The position numbers and the translations under genes were made by a program. The notes beneath the pieces are model-generated. The model worked only from the letters and a program-made list of their open reading frames with translations, ran no database searches and was not told where the DNA came from. From Thiotrichaceae bacterium (lineage in GTDB: Bacteria; Pseudomonadota; Gammaproteobacteria; Thiotrichales; Thiotrichaceae), in contig JALVDQ010000006.1 in the NCBI GenBank assembly GCA_027008885.1, forward strand, positions 1 to 18,714: 18,714 bases of DNA, given 5' to 3'. This document shows, piece by piece, positions 1 through 16,071 of this stretch; the first letter of the stretch is position 1; each line of letters begins with the position of its first letter.

Positions 1-46
1 CTCTCTATTACTGCATTACTACCCCCCCTCTTCCGCGTTTACTCCG

Positions 47-334
47 TTATTTATGCCATCCCCGAATATCATAGGGTCCTGTCATACCAGGATGATTAAA
101 AGGGGTATACCAGGCACCCTGATTCTCCAGAAAATGAAGACTCGCTGGATAAGGCGGTACAACACCATGTAATGCCCTGGCGTACCATTCAGCATCTTTT
201 TTAAACTCTTTGATTACTGGCGCACCCTCGGGTCGCTGATCCGGTTTCACTCCGGCAATGGGATAGGCTGAAACCCCGGTTATTAACAAGACAGAGCTTG
301 CACAAAGCAAGCCTTTAATGATTAAGTTTTGCAT
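47..334 (-). CDS. Small exported protein of unknown family
   Basis: I do not recognise this family. The start is placed at the ATG at 334 because a strong GGAGGA ribosome site lies just upstream; an in-frame ATG at 346 overlaps that site and is less likely. The 95-residue product begins with a classical signal peptide: Lys7, a hydrophobic stretch, and a VSA-Y cleavage site after residue 23. This leaves a mature periplasmic or secreted protein of about 72 residues. The mature part has no cysteine but is rich in Trp, Tyr, His and Pro, with conspicuous segments ENQGAWYTPF and GPYDIRGWH near the C-terminus, suggesting a compact binding protein rather than an enzyme (inference). It is divergent from the kinase/regulator operon and preceded by a sigma54-type promoter, so it is the probable target of that system. 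The call as a real gene rests on ribosome site, promoter and signal peptide together. Confidence 0.8.
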   Translation of the reverse strand: MQNLIIKGLLCASSVLLITGVSAYPIAGVKPDQRPEGAPVIKEFKKDAEWYARALHGVVPPYPASLHFLENQGAWYTPFNHPGMTGPYDIRGWHK

Positions 335-405
335 ATTTTCCTCCATTTTCTGTTACAGTTTTTTTGCTACATGATTTTTCATTTGTGTCTTCAATACACT
401 TTGAA

Positions 406-422
406 TGCAAAAAATATACCAG
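406..422 (-). promoter_or_regulatory. Sigma54 (-24/-12) promoter of the small exported protein
   Basis: Read on the minus strand the site is CTGGTATATTTTTTGCA. It has TGG at -24 and TTGCA at -12 with exactly ten bases between GG and GC, one mismatch from YTGGCAYRNNNNTTGCW. The predicted transcript start is near 395, about 60 bases before the ATG at 334. The adjacent operon encodes a sigma54 activator, which makes a chance match less likely. Upstream activator sites would be expected at roughly 450-560; a short inverted repeat CAAC-GAATT-GTTG at 526-538 is one weak candidate. Confidence 0.72.
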
Positions 423-584
423 GAATAGTTCAACAGAAGAATAAAGACATATAAAAAGCTCAATCTATGCCTTTCTGCGCAACGACTTATGCTTCGGGCA
501 GGAATTTCTGAAGGATACCGAGATCCAACGAATTGTTGTTTCTTTATCCCGGTTGAAAGGATATGCTAATTACTCTTTTGAAAA

Positions 585-2495
585 ATGATGCTAAGCATGC
601 CAGCTTGTCAGTCAATTATGCTACAACAAATATACCACTGGATAGAGAGTAAGCTAAACCGCAAATATATTTTGGGTATGGCGTCCGGTTTATTGGTTAT
701 CTCGGTTCTTTTTGCGATTCTGTTTATCAGCATGTATCAAAAGCAGTTGACGACTGAGCGCGCCAATACCTCCCTTCATCTTAACAAGCTGCTGCAAACC
801 TCGCTTGAAAACTCCATGTTAAAGCGCGATCTTGATGGTCTGCGGGATATTCTCAGACGCTTTGGGCAGCAGGATGAAATTCAGCGCGTAATGATTTTTA
901 ATCCCCAGGGAACGGTGCGCTTTTCATCTGAAAAAAAGTTTCTTGGTCATGTCGATCAGCAAATAGGAAGCACCACAAAAGACAAAACCGTTTTTATTAA
1001 ATCTGATGAAACCGGAGAAGTACTCAGAAGTATCAACCCGATTCACAATAAAAAGGAATGTGGAGTGTGTCACGGTGACAGCAACAAAACACCCATTAAC
1101 GGGGTGTTGGTTGTAGATTTTGATGCCAGCACGCTGCGCAAACACGCCAGAGATACAACCCTTGCCTTAATGGGTGCGGGTTCAACCGTTATGTTGATAA
1201 CACTCTTCGGTGGCTGGTGGTTTATGGGTCAGTTTGTTTTAAAACCAGTAAAGAAATTATTACGCGCCCAGGAAAAGTTTACCTCTGGCGACCTGCAGGC
1301 GCGCGTTCACCTAACCGGGAATGATGAAATCTCACAGCTTGGGGAGTCATTTAACAATATGGTTCAAACCATTGAGACACAGTGGAATACCATCAACAAG
1401 CGTCAGCAGTTTTTACAATCATTAATTGACGGGATTCCCGACGGCATTCGGGTTCTGGATCAGGATTATAATATCCTGCTTTATAACAAGGCTTATGCCG
1501 AACAGGTTACAGGAAACCCTGAAAGTATTATTACGCATAAATGTTACGCAGTTCATCAGCGTGACAAGCCTTGCATCCCTACCATGGAAACCTGCCCTTT
1601 ATTTGAGATAAAAGAACATGCCCAGGCAGTCAAGGCGGTTCATCATCATTTCAATATTCAGGAATATGAAACACAGTCGGTAGAAATTTTTGCCGCACCT
1701 GTTTTCGCCGCAGATGAACTGGGAAAGCAACCCATTATTATCGAAGTGATTCGTGATCTTGCAAAATCAGTCGATTATTCACAGGAACAGCGACTGACTG
1801 CACTCGGTATGCTGGCATCCGGAGTCGCGCATGAAATTCACAATCCACTGGGTTCCATACAAATTGCCTTTCAGTCAATCAATCAACTGATTGACTCTGA
1901 TGAACCCATTCTTGAGCAGTTAAAATATTATATCCAGTTGATTGAAGGCGAGATTGACAAATGCGTTGATATCACCGGTCGTTTACTAAAACTTGGAAAC
2001 CTGCCTGACACTCATCTACAACCAATTAACGTCAATACGGTCATCTCTGAAACAAGTTCCTTGCTTCAGTGGGAGGCAGCTTCAAAAAATATCAGGATGA
2101 ATCTCGAATTAATGCATCAAAATGACGCTAATCAGGCACAACTAAGGGTTATGGCGACCGATAATGAGTTTCGCATGATGATACTTAATCTCATTCAGAA
2201 TGCCTATCATGCCATGCCAGATGGAGGTGACCTGTATATTCGCGTGCAGACAACCGAGCAAAACAAATACATTTTGATCATAATAGAAGATACCGGCGTT
2301 GGTATCTCAAAAGAGATGCAGAAGAGGATTTTTGATCCCTTTTTTAGCCATCGCTCAGATAATCAAAAAGGCACGGGGCTGGGGCTTTCCATAGCCCAGG
2401 CAATCGTAAAGCGTTTTAGCGGCAGTATTACGGTATCGAGTGAACTTGGTAAAGGTTCTGTTTTTACCATAAAATTACCTAACGCAGACACTTGA
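585..2495 (+). CDS. Membrane sensor histidine kinase with periplasmic c-type heme motif
   Basis: A 636-residue two-component sensor kinase. Visible in order: membrane segment about 29-50; periplasmic sensor about 51-192 carrying CGVCH (Cys159, Cys162, His163), the covalent c-type heme attachment motif; second membrane segment about 193-215; HAMP about 216-268; PAS about 275-395 with a Cys/His cluster (Cys320, His324, Cys330, Cys337); H-box with phospho-acceptor His416 (VAHEIHNPLG); N-box Asn539; G1 box EDTGVGIS (569-575); FDPFF; and G2 box GTGLG (596-600). It should autophosphorylate and hand phosphate to the regulator encoded 16 bases downstream. Periplasmic sensors with CxxCH are known from redox and gas-sensing kinases and chemoreceptors, so heme binding is likely; the ligand is unknown. 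The start is uncertain: ATG codons at 585, 588, 597 and 618 all precede the first membrane segment, and none has a good ribosome site. Confidence 0.9.
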   Translation: MMLSMPACQSIMLQQIYHWIESKLNRKYILGMASGLLVISVLFAILFISMYQKQLTTERANTSLHLNKLLQTSLENSMLKRDLDGLRDILRRFGQQDEIQRVMIFNPQGTVRFSSEKKFLGHVDQQIGSTTKDKTVFIKSDETGEVLRSINPIHNKKECGVCHGDSNKTPINGVLVVDFDASTLRKHARDTTLALMGAGSTVMLITLFGGWWFMGQFVLKPVKKLLRAQEKFTSGDLQARVHLTGNDEISQLGESFNNMVQTIETQWNTINKRQQFLQSLIDGIPDGIRVLDQDYNILLYNKAYAEQVTGNPESIITHKCYAVHQRDKPCIPTMETCPLFEIKEHAQAVKAVHHHFNIQEYETQSVEIFAAPVFAADELGKQPIIIEVIRDLAKSVDYSQEQRLTALGMLASGVAHEIHNPLGSIQIAFQSINQLIDSDEPILEQLKYYIQLIEGEIDKCVDITGRLLKLGNLPDTHLQPINVNTVISETSSLLQWEAASKNIRMNLELMHQNDANQAQLRVMATDNEFRMMILNLIQNAYHAMPDGGDLYIRVQTTEQNKYILIIIEDTGVGISKEMQKRIFDPFFSHRSDNQKGTGLGLSIAQAIVKRFSGSITVSSELGKGSVFTIKLPNADT

Positions 2496-2511
2496 TTTTC
2501 CTGGACAAAAC

Positions 2512-3906
2512 ATGAGCACATCAACAACAGCCAATAAAGCACCCAATGAAGCGGGTAAAATTAAAAAGAAACCAGCCATTAGCGTATTGCTGGTAGAAGA
2601 TGACCGCGTTTTTAGCAAGCTACTTGTAGACCATCTGAGTCGCAATAATTATCTGATTGACAGCGCTCAGTCATGGAAAGAAGCCAAAGCTTTTCTTGCC
2701 AAAAATGAACCTGACCTGATCTTGCTTGATGTGCAACTGCCTGATGCAAATGGGCTGGATATTTTGAGCGAAATCACCCCGCAAATACCTACCCTGATAT
2801 TAACTGCCTTTGGCTCAGTACAAAACGCCGTCACCGCAATGCGCCGGGGAGCTGCCGACTATTTAATGAAGCCTATTAATATTCAGGAGCTTGAGCTTGT
2901 TATTGAGCGTGTTTTGGAAAACGAGTCAATACGTCGTGAATTACAGATTCGTAAAAACATTGATAATCGCCCACAAAATAAATTCATTGGCAAAAGTGAT
3001 GCGCTGATGCACGTTAAAAAACACATTCAGGCGGTTGCACAAAGCGATATTAATGTACTGATTCAGGGAGAAAGTGGCGCAGGCAAGGAGCTGGTCGCTC
3101 ATGCCATACACAAGGCAAGCCCGCGTGCCAAACACGGTTTTATTGCGGTTGATTGCTGCACCCTGACTGAAGACCTGTTTGAATCTGAATTATTTGGACA
3201 TGAAAAAGGCGCATTTACCGGCGCAAGCGGACAAAAAAAGGGACTCATCGAAGGCGCCAAAAATGGCACCTTATTTCTTGATGAAATCGGCGAAATATCA
3301 CCCTCAATTCAGGCAAAATTGTTGCGCGTGATTGAAACCGGTATTTTCAGACGCGTGGGAGGCACCAAAGATTTGCGCTCAAACGCACGTTTTGTAGTCG
3401 CAACCAATCGAAATCTGGCAAAAATGAGTGAAAAAAACGAATTTCGTGCCGACCTGTTTTATCGCCTCAGTGCTTTTATTATAGAAGCACCGCCACTGCG
3501 TCACCGACCGGACGATATTCCATTACTTGTAGATCATTTCCTTAAAAATCATAGCTTTTCAAGGCGAATCAATGTAACCGTTGATAAAGATGCACTGCAT
3601 GATTTAATGCAATACCATTGGCCAGGCAATGTGCGTGAACTCAAAAATGTCATAGAACGTGCCATTATTCTTATGGGAGATTCCCATGTCTTGACAAGTG
3701 AACATCTGGTTTTCAACTACCCAAATGCCAAAACAAGCTCAAATACTGTTCTAAGTTTTAAAAATGAACCCACACTGGAAGAAATCGAAGAAAACTACCT
3801 CAAAAAAACATTGATAAAATATTCCAACCACAGAGGCAAGACAGCCGAGGTTCTGGGTATTAGTGAAAGAACGCTTTATCGGCTTGTGAAAAAGTACAAG
3901 TTGTAA
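2512..3906 (+). CDS. NtrC-family sigma54-dependent response regulator
   Basis: A 464-residue activator with all three NtrC-class domains. Receiver, about 23-140: acidic pair Asp30/Asp31, phospho-acceptor Asp73, Thr98 and Lys120. AAA+ domain, about 158-395: Walker A GESGAGKE (186-193), the sigma54-contact loop GAFTGA (233-238), Walker B LFLDEIGE (254-261) and the arginine-containing FRADLFYRL segment. Fis-type helix-turn-helix at the C-terminus, about 437-461. All catalytic signatures are intact, so it should remodel sigma54 polymerase once phosphorylated. An N-terminal tail of about 20 polar, Lys-rich residues precedes the receiver. It follows the kinase by 16 bases, in one operon. The nearest visible sigma54 promoter is that of the divergent small exported protein, making that gene the likely target. 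Confidence 0.93.
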   Translation: MSTSTTANKAPNEAGKIKKKPAISVLLVEDDRVFSKLLVDHLSRNNYLIDSAQSWKEAKAFLAKNEPDLILLDVQLPDANGLDILSEITPQIPTLILTAFGSVQNAVTAMRRGAADYLMKPINIQELELVIERVLENESIRRELQIRKNIDNRPQNKFIGKSDALMHVKKHIQAVAQSDINVLIQGESGAGKELVAHAIHKASPRAKHGFIAVDCCTLTEDLFESELFGHEKGAFTGASGQKKGLIEGAKNGTLFLDEIGEISPSIQAKLLRVIETGIFRRVGGTKDLRSNARFVVATNRNLAKMSEKNEFRADLFYRLSAFIIEAPPLRHRPDDIPLLVDHFLKNHSFSRRINVTVDKDALHDLMQYHWPGNVRELKNVIERAIILMGDSHVLTSEHLVFNYPNAKTSSNTVLSFKNEPTLEEIEENYLKKTLIKYSNHRGKTAEVLGISERTLYRLVKKYKL

Positions 3907-4746: not shown

Positions 4747-4790
4747 AGAACCTGCCTATTGCGGAAACTCATATTTCCAGACAGGTTCTA
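4747..4790. repeat. Palindromic repeat, TAGRA..CTGTCTG family, copy 1
   Basis: Arms AGAACCTG (4747-4754) and CAGGTTCT (4782-4789) enclose an inner GGAAA/TTTCC pair. Read on the minus strand it runs TAGAACCTGTCTGG, ATATGAG, CCGCAATAGG, which aligns with the copy after dnaK (14091-14148) as an internally shortened form. It lies just after the rpe stop. It has no T-run in the rpe direction, so it is not itself the terminator. Confidence 0.7.
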
Positions 4791-4839
4791 AAAAAAGGGG
4801 GGGGATGGATAATACTGATACCCATCCCCCCCTTTTTTT
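4790..4839. terminator. Strong two-way terminator between rpe and gph
   Basis: A7 followed by G8 and ATGG (4790-4808) pairs with CCATC7T7 (4822-4839) across a loop of about 13 bases. The G:C stem flanked by A7 and T7 makes a near-perfect intrinsic terminator in both directions. Each arm is a copy of the core repeat (TACCCATCCCCCC then a T-run and TATATATTTT) found alone at five other places in the window, so the hairpin consists of two cores in inverted orientation. Confidence 0.88.
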
Positions 4840-5653: not shown

Positions 5654-7948
5654 CTACTTTGTCAAAGACAAAAATAACTGCGGCAGTTTTTCCGGCAAGC
5701 GATTGACATTATCAATCACTGTATAGTGGTTGCCAAAAATATCGCTCACATATTCATCCGCTTTGGGATCAAGACTGATGCAGTGGGTATAAATACCATT
5801 GGAATCCAGTTCCGTCGTCGCCTTGTGTGCGTCTTTAAGTAATAATTTACTGTCATGCACATCAATATCAGAGGGTTCGCCATCGGTCAAAACCAGCAAC
5901 AGCTTTTTATCTGCTTTTTGCTTGCCCAGATAATGTCCGGCGTGGCGTATCGCAGCACCCATGCGGGTTGAAAAGCCTGCTTCCATTTTGGCAAGACGGG
6001 CTTTTACATTGTCATCCCAGCGCTCATTAAAGCCTTTCAGGTGCAAATATTTGACATCATGGCGGGTATTGGAGAAAAAGCCGCCTATTGAGAATTTGTC
6101 ACCCAGTTTGTCAATTGCCCATGCCAGCAGGGACACCGCTTCCTGGCTTAATTCCAGCAGACTTTGGGTGCTGCCGGCAGGAATATCGTCCAGAGAGGCA
6201 GACAAATCCAGCAATAAAGTCACTGCAATATCACGACCATCGTGTTTATGACTCATATTAATGCGTGGATCAGGTGTTGCACCGCTTTTGAAGTCAATTA
6301 AGGAACGAATTGCCACATCCAGATCAAGTTCGCTTCCTTCTTCCTGATAACGGATACGCACATAATTCTGCGGTTTGAGCATATCCAGGATTTGTTTGAG
6401 CTTTTTCGCCAGGCTTGCGTGTTTTTCAAGCAGACGATCAATGATGGCAGGGTCACCTGAAGGATGCAGACTTTCGTACAGGCTTACCCAGTCGGGTCGG
6501 TAAGTCTTGGTATGATAATCCCATTCGGGATAATGGCGTGGCGGAAGTGTATTTAACTCTTCCTCAGTGTCCTTTTCTGGTGGCTCGCTGTCAAATTGCT
6601 CTTCTTCGTCACCATCTTCAATGAACACCCAAAGTCTGCGGTTATCATCGCGGTAATCGACGATAGTGTTGTCAAAATAGACACGCGCTGCCAGGTCTTC
6701 CTGGCGACGGGTGCGGGTAATAAAACCCAGACCAATATTGACACTGTCCTTTGAGGTGCTTTCTGCCCCTTTTTCTGCCATTAGTTCATGGAACTGTTTA
6801 ACTGAAAGCAGCACGTCTTTGTTTTTGTAGCCATGCTCAGGGTTTAAAATGGCATAGGAGAGCATTGCCAAACGATGACGAATACAGGAAACACCCTCCT
6901 CACTGCATTCATCTTCAAGTGGTCTGGGATGCAGTGAAAGCCACAGCTTGCGCAAGCCAGGGTATTCCTGCATGGCAAGATATTCAACACGCGAATCTTC
7001 GATAATCTCTATTGAAATGCGCTGAAAGGGGCTAAAATTATCGGCGACCAGTGGGGTACTCCAGCGTCGATGTGCGACCATGTGCGCCAGCAAGGCACGA
7101 TAACGATCAATGCCTGCAACCTTGCCTTCACCTGTTTTTGACTCAATATCATCATAAACATCCGGGATACGCATACCCAGCTTATCGTAATAAGGCACGG
7201 GCGCGCGCAGCTCATCAAAGCCCATTGAGTAGGGAATCAGAAAATCCTTGTCTTCCCACATGCCCTGCAAATACATGCCAAGATTACGTTCATTATCTGC
7301 AAACAGCGTACCATGCCGCTCGCGTTGCAACATCGCCTTTGAATCCGCCGATTGCAGGGTAAAATAATCTTTTTGCCGTTCAGGATGATCAGCGTAGTTA
7401 CGCACACCGTAATCAATCCAGTTTTTTAGACCTTCCAGCGAAATCTGGCTTAACAGATAAGGAATCTGATTGAGTAAATCCGGTAAACCAGGGCTTGGCA
7501 TGGTGGTATGATGACCATGAATTGAGCTGGTAGTGCGCTCCATCATATCAAACAGAATTTCAAAATAATGCCTGATCTGCTCCAGACTTCGCAGGCGTCG
7601 TCCTGCCTCACCCAGCGTTGCCATAAAGGGGGGAATAGAGACACCGTTGGGGCTGCGCGAAATTTCCCAGACACGATCTGAAACCAGTTTAATGACTTCT
7701 TCACCTACCCTCTGTGCCAGTTCGGGGATGACTTCAAGATATTGCAGAACAGGCTCTACGCCACGCCCTATCATACAGATCAGGGATGCACCATTGAGAT
7801 AGTCCCTGATTCCCTGCTCACTTAAATGCGCCTGGGCATCAGCAATAAAGCCTTCAAACACATCATCAATCTGCTCAAAACTGCATTTGAGCTGATCCCG
7901 ATAAGACTGCAATTCAGGTGTCAGTGGTTTTTTTTCAGTGATAGTCAT
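5654..7948 (-). CDS. cbbO: RuBisCO activase subunit CbbO (VWA protein)
   Basis: A 764-residue protein with a C-terminal von Willebrand factor A domain, about 572-764: MIDAS motif DLSAS (581-585), Thr661 in the GFSTRMG segment, and LTDGEPSD (Asp689). The long N-terminal part and an acidic, Pro-rich linker before the VWA domain match CbbO; NorD proteins of denitrifiers are noticeably shorter. In CbbQO systems a CbbQ ATPase ring carries one CbbO, which docks on RuBisCO through its VWA domain so that inhibitory sugar phosphates are released. The gene starts five bases after the cbbQ stop, with only a weak ribosome site, consistent with translational coupling. No RuBisCO gene is present here. NorD remains the alternative, but no nitric oxide reductase gene is near. 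Confidence 0.86.
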   Translation of the reverse strand: MTITEKKPLTPELQSYRDQLKCSFEQIDDVFEGFIADAQAHLSEQGIRDYLNGASLICMIGRGVEPVLQYLEVIPELAQRVGEEVIKLVSDRVWEISRSPNGVSIPPFMATLGEAGRRLRSLEQIRHYFEILFDMMERTTSSIHGHHTTMPSPGLPDLLNQIPYLLSQISLEGLKNWIDYGVRNYADHPERQKDYFTLQSADSKAMLQRERHGTLFADNERNLGMYLQGMWEDKDFLIPYSMGFDELRAPVPYYDKLGMRIPDVYDDIESKTGEGKVAGIDRYRALLAHMVAHRRWSTPLVADNFSPFQRISIEIIEDSRVEYLAMQEYPGLRKLWLSLHPRPLEDECSEEGVSCIRHRLAMLSYAILNPEHGYKNKDVLLSVKQFHELMAEKGAESTSKDSVNIGLGFITRTRRQEDLAARVYFDNTIVDYRDDNRRLWVFIEDGDEEEQFDSEPPEKDTEEELNTLPPRHYPEWDYHTKTYRPDWVSLYESLHPSGDPAIIDRLLEKHASLAKKLKQILDMLKPQNYVRIRYQEEGSELDLDVAIRSLIDFKSGATPDPRINMSHKHDGRDIAVTLLLDLSASLDDIPAGSTQSLLELSQEAVSLLAWAIDKLGDKFSIGGFFSNTRHDVKYLHLKGFNERWDDNVKARLAKMEAGFSTRMGAAIRHAGHYLGKQKADKKLLLVLTDGEPSDIDVHDSKLLLKDAHKATTELDSNGIYTHCISLDPKADEYVSDIFGNHYTVIDNVNRLPEKLPQLFLSLTK
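5670..5693. terminator. Weak two-way hairpin at the gph/cbbO junction
   Basis: AACTG-CGG-CAGTT (5676-5688) flanked by an A-run and T5 can fold on either strand. It lies inside the last codons of cbbO and about 75 bases after gph. The stem is short, so its value as a terminator is doubtful, but no better one exists between the convergent genes. Confidence 0.3.
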
Positions 7949-7953
7949 AAGCT

Positions 7954-8763
7954 TTAGGCAAATACTGCATCAATGGCATGATCCAGTGTTTGACGAATAT
8001 CGGCATCATCTGTTATTGGGCGAACCAGCGCCATGCGACAGGCATCTGGAGCAGCAATCCCCTGATTCATCAGGTTTGCCGCATAAACCAGCAAGCGGGT
8101 TGAGATACCTTCATCCAGTCCATGACCTTTCAAATTACGCGCCACACCACCGATTTTAACCAGTTTTTTTGCCGTATCAGCATCAACACCCGTTTCTTTC
8201 TCAATAATACCTGCTTCAACTTTTGCAGGTGCATAATCAAAATCCATTGCCACAAAACGCTGTTTGGTGGACTGCTTTAATTCCTTCATAAGGCTCTGGT
8301 AGCCCGGATTATAAGAAATAACCAGTTGAAAATCGGGGTGCGCGGTGACTGTTTCACCCTTTTTATCAAGCGGAAGTGTGCGCCGATGGTCAGTCAACGG
8401 GTGAATAACGACAGTCGTATCCTGACGCGCTTCAACTACCTCATCCAGATAGCAGATCGCCCCAATTCGTGCTGCAACAGTAAGCGGACCATCCAGCCAG
8501 CGGGTGCCATTGGCATCCAGCAAATAACGACCCACCAGATCAGATGCAGTCATATCTTCATTACAGGCAACCGTAATTAACGGTTTATCAAGCTTATACG
8601 CCATGTGTTCAATAAAACGGGATTTACCACAGCCCGTTGGACCCTTGACCATGACAGGCAAACGCGCATCATAAGCTGCCTGATACCACTTAACCTCATC
8701 ACCCTGGGCATAATAAAAAGGTTCTTCGCTGATTTTATATTGCTCGATATCTAACTCTGACAT
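7954..8763 (-). CDS. cbbQ: RuBisCO activase subunit CbbQ (MoxR-type AAA+ ATPase)
   Basis: A 269-residue AAA+ ATPase of the MoxR/CbbQ/NorQ group. Walker A is GPTGCGKS (41-48), Walker B ICYLDEV (103-109), and the sensor-1 region is VISYNPGYQ (148-156). The C-terminal part, about 178-265, has the CbbQ_C look, with GISTRLLVYAANLM. It forms a hexameric ring whose ATP hydrolysis powers CbbO-dependent remodelling of RuBisCO. The ATG at 8763 is preceded by AGGATT. It is the first gene of a cbbQ-cbbO operon and stands alone, since a repeat-filled gap and hda lie upstream rather than cbbL/S or cbbM. NorQ is the closest alternative; the long CbbO partner favours CbbQ. Confidence 0.86.
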   Translation of the reverse strand: MSELDIEQYKISEEPFYYAQGDEVKWYQAAYDARLPVMVKGPTGCGKSRFIEHMAYKLDKPLITVACNEDMTASDLVGRYLLDANGTRWLDGPLTVAARIGAICYLDEVVEARQDTTVVIHPLTDHRRTLPLDKKGETVTAHPDFQLVISYNPGYQSLMKELKQSTKQRFVAMDFDYAPAKVEAGIIEKETGVDADTAKKLVKIGGVARNLKGHGLDEGISTRLLVYAANLMNQGIAAPDACRMALVRPITDDADIRQTLDHAIDAVFA

Positions 8764-14148: not shown

Positions 14149-16071
14149 GGCTTTTTTATTGTCATCGACTTCTTCAAACTCGGCATCAACCACATCGTCG
14201 TCTTCTGCCTTGCTTTCTGCGCCAGCAGCACCAGCTCCCGCTGTTTGCGCGCCCGCATCACCGCCAGCGGCTGCCTGAGCCAGGCTACCCGATGCTTCCA
14301 TGAGCTCCTGAGATTTTTTCTCAATGGCTTCCTTGTCATCGCCCTGGGCAACTTCCTTAAGCTCTGCAAGCAGACCTTCGACTTTGCTTTTCTCTGCGGC
14401 ATCAACCTTGTCACCGTAATCTTTCAGTGATTTTTCAGTGGCATGCACCAGTGCATCAGCCTGATTTCGTGCATCCACCAGCTCACGCGCCTTCTTGTCT
14501 TCTTCAGCGTGTGCTTCGGCATCTTTCACCATGGCTTCAATCTCTTCATCTGAGAGACCGGATGATGCCTTGATGACAATAGACTGCTCCTTGCCTGTTG
14601 CCTTGTCTTTGGCAGATACATTCAGGATACCGTTGGCATCAATATCAAACGTTACCTCGATTTGAGGCTGACCGCGTGGCGCAGGGGGGATATCCGTCAG
14701 GTCAAAACGACCCAGTGATTTATTGTCTGCAGCCATTTCACGCTCACCCTGCAATACATGAACCGTTACCGCATTTTGATTGTCTTCAGCAGTGGAGAAC
14801 ACTTGCGATGCCTTGGTTGGAATGGTTGTGTTCTTGTCGATAAGCTTGGTCATTACCGCGCCCATTGTTTCGATACCCAGTGACAGCGGGGTAACATCCA
14901 GCAACAGAACGTCGGTTACACTTCCACCCAGAACACCGCCCTGGATAGCAGCACCAACCGCTACTGCTTCATCAGGATTCACGTCCTTGCGTGGCTCTTT
15001 GCCAAAGAAGTCTGTTACCGCCTGTTGTACCAGTGGCATGCGTGTTTGACCACCGACCAGAATCACATCGCTAATTTCTGAGGCACTCATGCCGGCATCT
15101 TTTAAGGCAACTTTACAAGGCTCAATCGTGCGTTTTACCAGGTCTTCAACCAACGACTCAAGTTTGGCGCGTGTTACTTTTACGTTCAAGTGCTTGGGTC
15201 CTGAGGCATCTGCTGTTACATAAGGCAGGTTGACCTCGGTTTGCTGCGCTGATGAAAGCTCAATCTTGGCTTTTTCAGCGGCCTCCTTAAGACGTTGCAA
15301 CGCCAGCGGATCATTGTGCAGATCAACGCCGTTGTCCTTTTTAAACTCATCCGCCAGATAATCAATCAGGCGCATATCAAAGTCTTCACCACCAAGGAAA
15401 GTATCACCATTGGTTGACAATACTTCAAACTGGTATTCGCCATCTATTTCTGCGATTTCGATAATGGATATATCAAATGTACCACCACCCAGGTCATAGA
15501 CTGCAATGGTGCTGTCACCTGATGTTTTGTCCATGCCATAAGCAAGCGCTGCGGCAGTTGGCTCGTTGATAATACGCTTTACGTCCAGACCCGCGATTTT
15601 ACCCGCATCTTTTGTCGCCTGACGCTGAGAGTCATTAAAATAGGCAGGAACAGTAATAACCGCTTCTGAAACGGATTCACCCAGATAATCTTCTGCGTCT
15701 TTTTTAAGCTTTTGCAAAATACGCGCAGAAACTTCAGGCGGCGACATTTTTTTGCCATTAACCTCAACCCAGGCATCACCATTATCCGCCTTGATGATTT
15801 TATAAGGCACAAGCTTAATATCTTTTTGTACCGCTTCCTCATCAAAGGTACGACCTATCAAACGCTTGATGGCAAACAGGGTGTTTTCAGGGTTTGTGAC
15901 TGCCTGACGCTTGGCTGGCTGACCAACCAGGACTTCATCATTGGCAAATGCAACAATCGAAGGGGTTGTGCGATCGCCTTCTGAATTTTCAATAACTTTA
16001 GGTTTGTCGCCTTCCATCACTGCAACGCAGGAATTGGTAGTTCCTAAATCTATTCCGATTATCTTTCCCAT
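14146..16071 (-). CDS. dnaK: Chaperone DnaK (Hsp70)
   Basis: ATP-driven chaperone that binds exposed hydrophobic peptides, cycling with DnaJ and GrpE. The 641-residue product is full length. ATPase signatures are IDLGTTNSC (7-15), YDLGGGTFD (192-200) and GGEDFD (227-232). The interdomain linker [13 protein letters not shown] follows at about 390, then the beta-sandwich with QGERE. A helical lid and an Ala/Gly-rich tail end in EEVDDNKKA. The ATG at 16071 is preceded only by AGAGAGATTT. It lies 156 bases after grpE on the same strand. A second, weaker heat-shock-like promoter may sit in that gap. The stop codon lies in the edge of a palindromic repeat. Confidence 0.98.

Follow-up and report, generated by a model that had tools for sequence, protein, structure and literature searches.

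Background

Molybdoenzymes that reduce methionine sulfoxide (MetO) have been described from several bacteria, in differing company. The Escherichia coli DmsABC enzyme can reduce MetO, and hypochlorite induces dmsA (PMC12096835); Rhodobacter DorA reduces protein-bound MetO and, of two peptides tested, acts about three-fold faster on QWGAGM(O)QAEED (PMC7402097). Perchlorate reducers combine an exported Met-rich protein, MrpX, with the YedYZ molybdenum MetO reductase in what has been termed a “methionine-cycling mechanism” (PMC4623255, PMC10746228), and in the giant Thiotrichales sulfur bacteria the dimethyl sulfoxide (DMSO) reductases are annotated as respiratory (PMC5728499). On the sensory side, the recently described sCache_heme domains bind nitric oxide (NO), a signalling protein with such a domain behaves as an NO sensor (PMC12889525), and the sensor domains of GSU0935 and GSU0582 are swapped dimers (PMC3460858). 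Here we analyze a window of 18,714 nucleotides (bases 1-18714 of contig C6, JALVDQ010000006.1, in the 494-contig genome GCA_027008885.1 of a Thiotrichaceae bacterium), at the start of which genes for a putative heme-sensing histidine kinase and an NtrC-type regulator are divergent from a gene for a 95-residue exported protein, hereafter SP. Judging from sequence comparisons, it is rather probable that SP heads an operon that depends on sigma54 and codes for a periplasmic S- or N-oxide reductase system, an estimate that covers the operon, its control and the class of reaction.

SP and a molybdoenzyme operon

A contig scan of genomes yielded 98 SP relatives, and 80 loci were kept, their neighbors being clustered and then re-counted by tblastn. 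The operon is most apparent in the 43 loci that extend at least 4.2 kb downstream of SP: a same-strand DmsA-like gene follows SP in 42 of them, a multiheme cytochrome gene is found in 42, a DmsB-like gene in 40 and a TorD gene in 39. The usual order is SP, an exported (Gly-Met-x)n protein, a pentaheme cytochrome c, the DmsA-like protein with its twin-arginine translocation (TAT) signal, a DmsB-like ferredoxin, a TorD chaperone and, often, a polyferredoxin. One locus, L031, displays a different gene order, and in the single locus of the 43 that departs from the DmsA-like linkage, L037, the Gly-Met-x gene is placed just upstream of SP, with only 622 bases available upstream on the contig and no enzyme gene within 10 kb downstream of SP. 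Open reading frames (ORFs) on the strand opposite the repeat or opposite GC-rich genes (clusters 9, 12, 13 and 16) were treated as shadows. This otherwise mostly proteobacterial operon is also present in L050 (CP059262.1), which is titled Exiguobacterium profundum, a name that may be wrong.

The same linkage is seen in the gene content of genomes, as assessed by Fisher tests that ignore shared ancestry. Among the 274 genomes of the class, in each of which up to three enzyme candidates were scored so that misses are possible, SP is present in 11 and the enzyme clade in 13, with both in 10 (one with SP only and three with the DmsA-like protein only; Fisher 6e-15). For the 63 genomes of the order the figures are 17, 17 and 16 (Fisher 8e-13), and for a set of 57 relatives, which overlaps the class and order genomes, they are 10, 10 and 9. 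At least eight matches to a DNA pattern of five Gly-Met-x triplets occur in 13 of the 14 class genomes with SP or the enzyme versus 2 of the 260 others (Fisher 2e-19); the exceptions are the 14th genome, G157, with five matches, and the two others, G071 and G272, of which G272 belongs to the G157 genus. At least one match occurs in 60 of the 274 genomes, and the reversed pattern in 2 of the 274. GroEL has a GGM tail, and we considered whether chance or this tail accounts for the matches; the tail might explain the many genomes with one to three matches, not those with eight or more. In G307 the kinase, SP and the repeat stand at a contig end, and the enzyme was not found.

In 36 of the 80 loci the sequence available after SP is shorter than 1.3 kb, many of the contigs ending inside the Gly-Met repeat, and hence the operon is easily overlooked. 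Our window likewise begins at base 1 of C6, which is why the genes after SP are missing from it. A DmsA-like profile search of the same genome found one gene at E<=1e-20, on contig C263. Read in reverse, this contig codes for the end of a Gly-Met-x protein, a five-CxxCH cytochrome, the DmsA-like protein (866 residues), a DmsB-like protein (224), a TorD-like protein (297, PF02613) and BacA/UppP, with no polyferredoxin after TorD, unlike many relatives; both C6 and C263 end at or before the repeat. The preliminary description of the window had the circuit controlling one small protein, and indeed no other gene follows SP in the window. However, the contig stops 46 bp past the SP stop codon, SP heads the molybdoenzyme operon in 42 of 43 loci, and in its own genome the remainder is placed on C263 by synteny. 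A circuit with SP as its single target is thus hardly credible, and we reject it as a contig-end effect.

The elements of the system in the window are:

1..46, contig start: start of contig C6, where the downstream operon genes are truncated, 46 bp past the SP stop
47..334, minus strand: SP, 95-residue exported protein lacking Cys, predicted gene 1 of the operon; signal peptide judged by eye
406..421 (421-406), minus strand: predicted sigma54 -24/-12 promoter of the SP operon, TGGTATATTTTTTGCA, with GG-N10-GC spacing
585..2495, plus strand: membrane histidine kinase with predicted Cache-heme sensor, HAMP, PAS, HisKA and HATPase domains
735..1136, plus strand: periplasmic sensor domain of the kinase, modelled Cache fold
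1059..1073, plus strand: CGVCH, predicted heme-c attachment motif, lying between two hydrophobic stretches (by eye)
1542..1595, plus strand: Cys cluster CYxxHxRDxPCxPTxxxCP in the cytoplasmic PAS domain
2512..3906, plus strand: NtrC-type response regulator, co-oriented with and downstream of the kinase
3208..3225, plus strand: GAFTGA codons of the regulator

These include all the parts noticed in the preliminary description, namely the CGVCH kinase, the NtrC-type regulator with GAFTGA, the divergent 95-residue exported protein and the -24/-12 site with exact spacing. The SP reading frame spans 47-346 on the minus strand, with candidate starts at ATG 334 and ATG 346. The former, which gives 95 residues, has GGAGG just upstream, and we prefer it because the closest homologs among the matches listed are 95-96 residues long. 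All 522 candidates in a protein search proved to be SP relatives at E<=1, and 120 of them were listed. SP has no Pfam or NCBIfam match at E<=0.1, for which reason we set aside membership in a known family, and its best match among PDB sequences has E = 1. Its role would be that of a small accessory of the molybdoenzyme complex. A tie of SP to thiosulfate oxidation was also considered and set aside: soxB is above cut-off in 8 of 11 SP genomes versus 112 of all 274, which is not significant (Fisher p = 0.055), the remaining SP genomes showing no match (G067 and G145) or a match below cut-off (G211). G211 has two SP copies close to each other, at C45:13048-13326 and 14822-15130.

Predicted sigma54 control

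The receiver, sigma54 AAA+ and Fis helix-turn-helix domains of the regulator (Pfam), together with its intact GAFTGA, fit an NtrC-type sigma54 activator. The cluster to which it belongs has 47 ORFs, with GAFTGA in 33, GSFTGA in 4 and neither in 10, of which 9 are shorter than 300 residues. On the promoter side, TGGYAY-N5-TTGCW has two matches in the window versus 0.1 expected from mononucleotide shuffles; one is the site before SP, with a predicted transcript start near 395, and the other, 7313-7298, falls within the ORF 5654-7948. We scanned 76 of the 80 loci for such sites (L003 being too short, and L073, L074 and L076 giving no core), counting as a site any match up to 300 bases upstream of the SP core that reached p<0.05 against 200 mononucleotide shuffles. 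A sigma54-like site was thereby detected in 51 of the 76 loci, including 34 of the 36 scanned loci with a divergent kinase, and sigma54 control of SP, as proposed from the window, is supported for this layout. The kinase itself is present in 50 of the 72 loci with at least 3 kb upstream, several of the other 22 being cut by contig ends downstream, which upholds the expected co-occurrence of SP with the kinase. In some lineages the kinase is downstream rather than divergent; these loci, mostly alphaproteobacterial by title, have a site in 4 of 12 cases. Since sites accompany 34 of 36 divergent versus 4 of 12 kinase-downstream loci, sigma54 control appears to belong to the divergent layout, and the kinase-downstream loci have either another control or a sigma54 site that went unrecognized.

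The sensor kinase

In the window kinase the HAMP, HisKA and HATPase domains score above the Pfam cut-offs and PAS just below. An AlphaFold2 model of the sensor has strand 94-104, helix 107-113 (with the CxxCH at 109-113) and strand 121-130, that is, a Cache fold with the CxxCH helix before the last strand, and its closest structural matches are the Cache domains of WalK and CitA. CxxCH is found in 57 of the 60 kinases of the cluster. The prediction of a c-type heme sensor, made from this conservation and the modelled fold, is thus supported, as the preliminary description had surmised from the motif. Superposition on GSU0935 and GSU0582 is loose (root-mean-square deviation about 14), and the window kinase falls below cut-off, as a weak match, with both the PF11845/Tll0287 and the PF21563 profiles; at E<=0.01, PF21563 is found in 10 and PF11845 in 8 of 23 kinases. 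In an alignment of these 23 kinases (A4), two positions of the PAS Cys cluster, C319 and C329, are nearly invariant and C336 is invariant; this cluster is a possible second redox site. A second alignment (A5) comprises 19 of the 23, omitting L019, L060 (which holds X), and L031 and L036 (both without CxxCH). The L019 kinase is apparently different, a hybrid kinase with 20% identity.

We propose that heme c in the periplasmic sensor would bind NO or report the redox state, and that the kinase would phosphorylate the regulator, with sigma54-dependent transcription of the SP operon as the outcome. Electrons would pass by way of the pentaheme cytochrome and the DmsB-like protein to the Mo site, where an S- or N-oxide would be reduced. 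Induction of a periplasmic S-/N-oxide reductase by heme-sensed NO or redox stress is, in our assessment, most likely.

The enzyme, the Gly-Met-x protein and the substrate

The DmsA-like enzyme scores best with the DmsA/YnfE NCBIfam models, at 600.5 bits in our genome and 624.5 in L044, below the TIGR02166 (DmsA/YnfE) cut-off of 777.7 bits. The whole protein can be aligned with DmsA of E. coli, at 35% identity, and the DmsB-like protein with DmsB, at 41%. In alignments with 1eu1 and E. coli DmsA, the Ser of a WS[VI]PSY motif present in 43 of 43 loci falls in their Mo-ligand region, and we take this Ser to be the Mo ligand. All 43 loci have CAHNCGSRH as their FS0 motif, where E. coli DmsA has CTVNCGSRC, the third Cys being replaced by His. 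No DmsC-like anchor was recognized inside the operon, for which no profile search of all loci was made. At E<=1e-100 there are 2560 relatives among 7998 scored proteins, and several of the 120 matches listed bear the Joint Genome Institute (JGI) name ‘anaerobic dimethyl sulfoxide reductase subunit A’. Separately, the DmsA-like gene is split over two frames in a Thiothrix locus (L053 12158-14718) and has an internal stop at G335:C5:331300, in either case from possible decay or sequencing error. Further along contig C263 (L093 3-3692), past BacA/UppP and in the same orientation, there is another molybdoenzyme gene (765 residues) that is nearest to formate dehydrogenase/nitrate reductase models, below cut-off; adjoining it is a ferredoxin-DmsC fusion partner, matched by PF04976 at L093:3-1271.

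These affinities suit plain respiration of small S- or N-oxides (DMSO, trimethylamine N-oxide and the like) by sulfur oxidizers, with the same operon and control, in which the Gly-Met-x protein and SP would only assist in building or anchoring the complex. We see this as a serious contender with somewhat less than an even chance. The fit to the DmsA/YnfE models, a TorD and a multiheme partner suited to a respiratory chain, the absence of the Gly-Met-x gene in place from some loci, and the respiratory annotation of the giant Thiotrichales enzymes (PMC5728499) all speak in its favor. However, it leaves unexplained both the tight association of repeat and enzyme and the composition of the repeat, where Met, and not any hydrophobic residue, holds nearly every position. 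The 35 complete Gly-Met-x proteins have 18-31% Met (median 25%); in number of Met residues, the median is 71. Across 64 arrays, 3186 triplets are flanked by Gly-Met, a count inflated by recent tandem duplication, and of these 3182 have Gly and 3158 Met (otherwise Gln in 23, Ile/Leu in 4 and Asn in 1), with the third position varying freely (Ser, Gly, Asn, Gln, Asp and others). All four Gly codons are in use, a sign of synonymous divergence within the arrays. What is conserved in the repeat is some property of the thioether, either its oxidation chemistry or soft-metal binding.

With regard to the former, the likeliest single substrate would be MetO, above all in the adjoining Gly-Met-x protein, the pair constituting a rechargeable oxidant sink. 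We advance this tentatively, by analogy, because MetO is reduced by DorA and DmsABC, and YedYZ of the perchlorate reducers works alongside a Met-rich peptide. As a class, plain S-/N-oxide respiration is about as likely as such a sink. The fullest version of the oxidant-sink reading posits a heme-sensed, sigma54-controlled periplasmic redox buffer, undescribed before, in which an exported (Gly-Met-x)n protein of about 70 Met would take up oxidants as MetO, a dedicated enzyme of the DMSO reductase family, with a His-variant FS0 and fed by the pentaheme cytochrome, would recharge it, and SP would be a new small accessory subunit; taken as a whole, we hold it to be rather unlikely.

A motif ‘YF+I.P.G.I.FYP’ interrupts many Gly-Met-x arrays. 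It is like the repeats of a secreted protein (cluster 10) made of short ‘GW..xxDGs.i..P’ units, encoded upstream of SP in L044 (8503-9345) and 12 other loci; the gene for this protein sits between SP and the kinase where both are visible and has no Pfam/NCBIfam match.

Arrangements that depart from the common pattern

Several observations weigh against an operon of SP, repeat and S-/N-oxide reductase under sigma54 control. The adjacency of C6 and C263 is proposed from synteny, and the AlphaFold2 model of SP is poor (predicted local distance difference test score 65). The preliminary description expected SP to keep company with the kinase and a -24/-12 promoter; this holds for the divergent layout and fails in part elsewhere, as no sigma54 site was recognized in 8 of 12 kinase-downstream loci, and in L070 (2-3575), from a Pirellulaceae metagenome-assembled genome, there is no kinase within the available 3.1 kb downstream. 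In that locus SP forms the C-terminal domain of a cytochrome c-like protein with CxxCH, encoded directly upstream of COX2 and COX1; five more SP-cytochrome c-like fusions are known from the protein database (P0241-P0245), two with PF00034. G132 has an operon including the Gly-Met-x gene, and SP was not found. The Gly-Met-x gene was not found beside SP in L003, L017, L025, L031 and L052, where the operons are otherwise there, and is upstream of SP in L022; the pattern recurs elsewhere in four of those five genomes (as a single match for L003), L025 having none. Finally, in locus L096 (4750-5375) of the same planctomycete genome as L070, a Gly-Met-x gene is divergent from QrcA/B/C-like genes (below cut-off), presumably ACIII-related (alternative complex III), the same genome having a separate repeat-cytochrome-DmsA-DmsB-TorD operon (L097). 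Because of these Qrc/ACIII-like and oxidase contexts, neither SP nor the Gly-Met-x protein is tied to sulfoxide reduction alone, and the planctomycete arrangements point to a wider role around cytochrome complexes.

The same contexts, namely the SP fusion beside oxidase genes and the repeat gene beside Qrc/ACIII-like genes, along with the M-x-x-M spacing throughout the repeat, would be expected if the Gly-Met-x protein were a copper(I)-binding thioether array for cytochrome or oxidase assembly and the operon answered copper or redox stress. However, no copper transporter or regulator was recognized among seven annotated neighbor proteins (most clusters not being scanned), and the repeats contain few His (8 of 3186), a residue frequent in copper sites. 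We deem a copper function improbable.

Other features of the window

A near-perfect, terminator-like hairpin with A7-G8 and C7-T7 arms lies at 4790-4839, between rpe and the next gene. Following rpe and a phosphatase-like gene, the stretch 5654-8763 on the minus strand holds a CbbQ-type AAA gene and a VWA-domain gene, the latter of which we take to be CbbO/NorD-like.

Implications

Through the linkage reported here, SP and the Gly-Met-x protein, both exported and without a family, become strongly tied at the genetic level to a single kind of molybdoenzyme, and the heme-c sensor class of a 2026 preprint acquires a candidate target operon. If the substrate of that enzyme is indeed its neighbor, the pair would be a protein-based, rechargeable periplasmic oxidant sink in bacteria. 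The results also raise anew the question of what the enzymes with a DMSO respiration annotation do in sulfur oxidizers.

Comparison with described systems

Like E. coli DmsABC, the system has a TAT-signal catalytic subunit with Ser at the Mo-ligand position, a DmsB-like ferredoxin and a TorD-family chaperone; it differs in the His in place of the third FS0 Cys and in the added pentaheme cytochrome, Gly-Met-x protein and SP. With Rhodobacter DorA and Haemophilus influenzae MtsZ, the latter also reportedly reducing MetO, it shares the superfamily of MetO-reducing Mo enzymes; we know of no DmsB partner for either. As in MrpX/YedYZ, an exported Met-rich protein is encoded beside a molybdoenzyme; however, the enzyme here is a DmsA-like member of the DMSO reductase family rather than of the YedY type, which belongs to the sulfite-oxidase family, the Met-rich sequence is (Gly-Met-x)n, and control is by a predicted heme kinase and sigma54 rather than by sigF/nrsF. 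The accessible text on DorA mentions no Met-repeat partner (PMC7402097). The kinase resembles the sCache_heme sensors (Tll0287, GSU0582, GSU0935) in its modelled Cache fold, the CxxCH helix before the last strand and the fusion to HAMP and kinase domains (PMC12889525), and departs from them in its weak matches to the family profiles and its loose superposition on GSU0935 and GSU0582; in the accessible text of that paper we found no mention of an operon or of DMSO. No description of the operon, or of SP or the Gly-Met-x protein with DmsA, was found in the open-licence literature searched, and the same holds for the FS0 variant with His and for the combination of these parts. Each part taken singly resembles known things, and we regard the system as a whole as a variant of the DMSO reductase systems, controlled by a sensor of a type already known.

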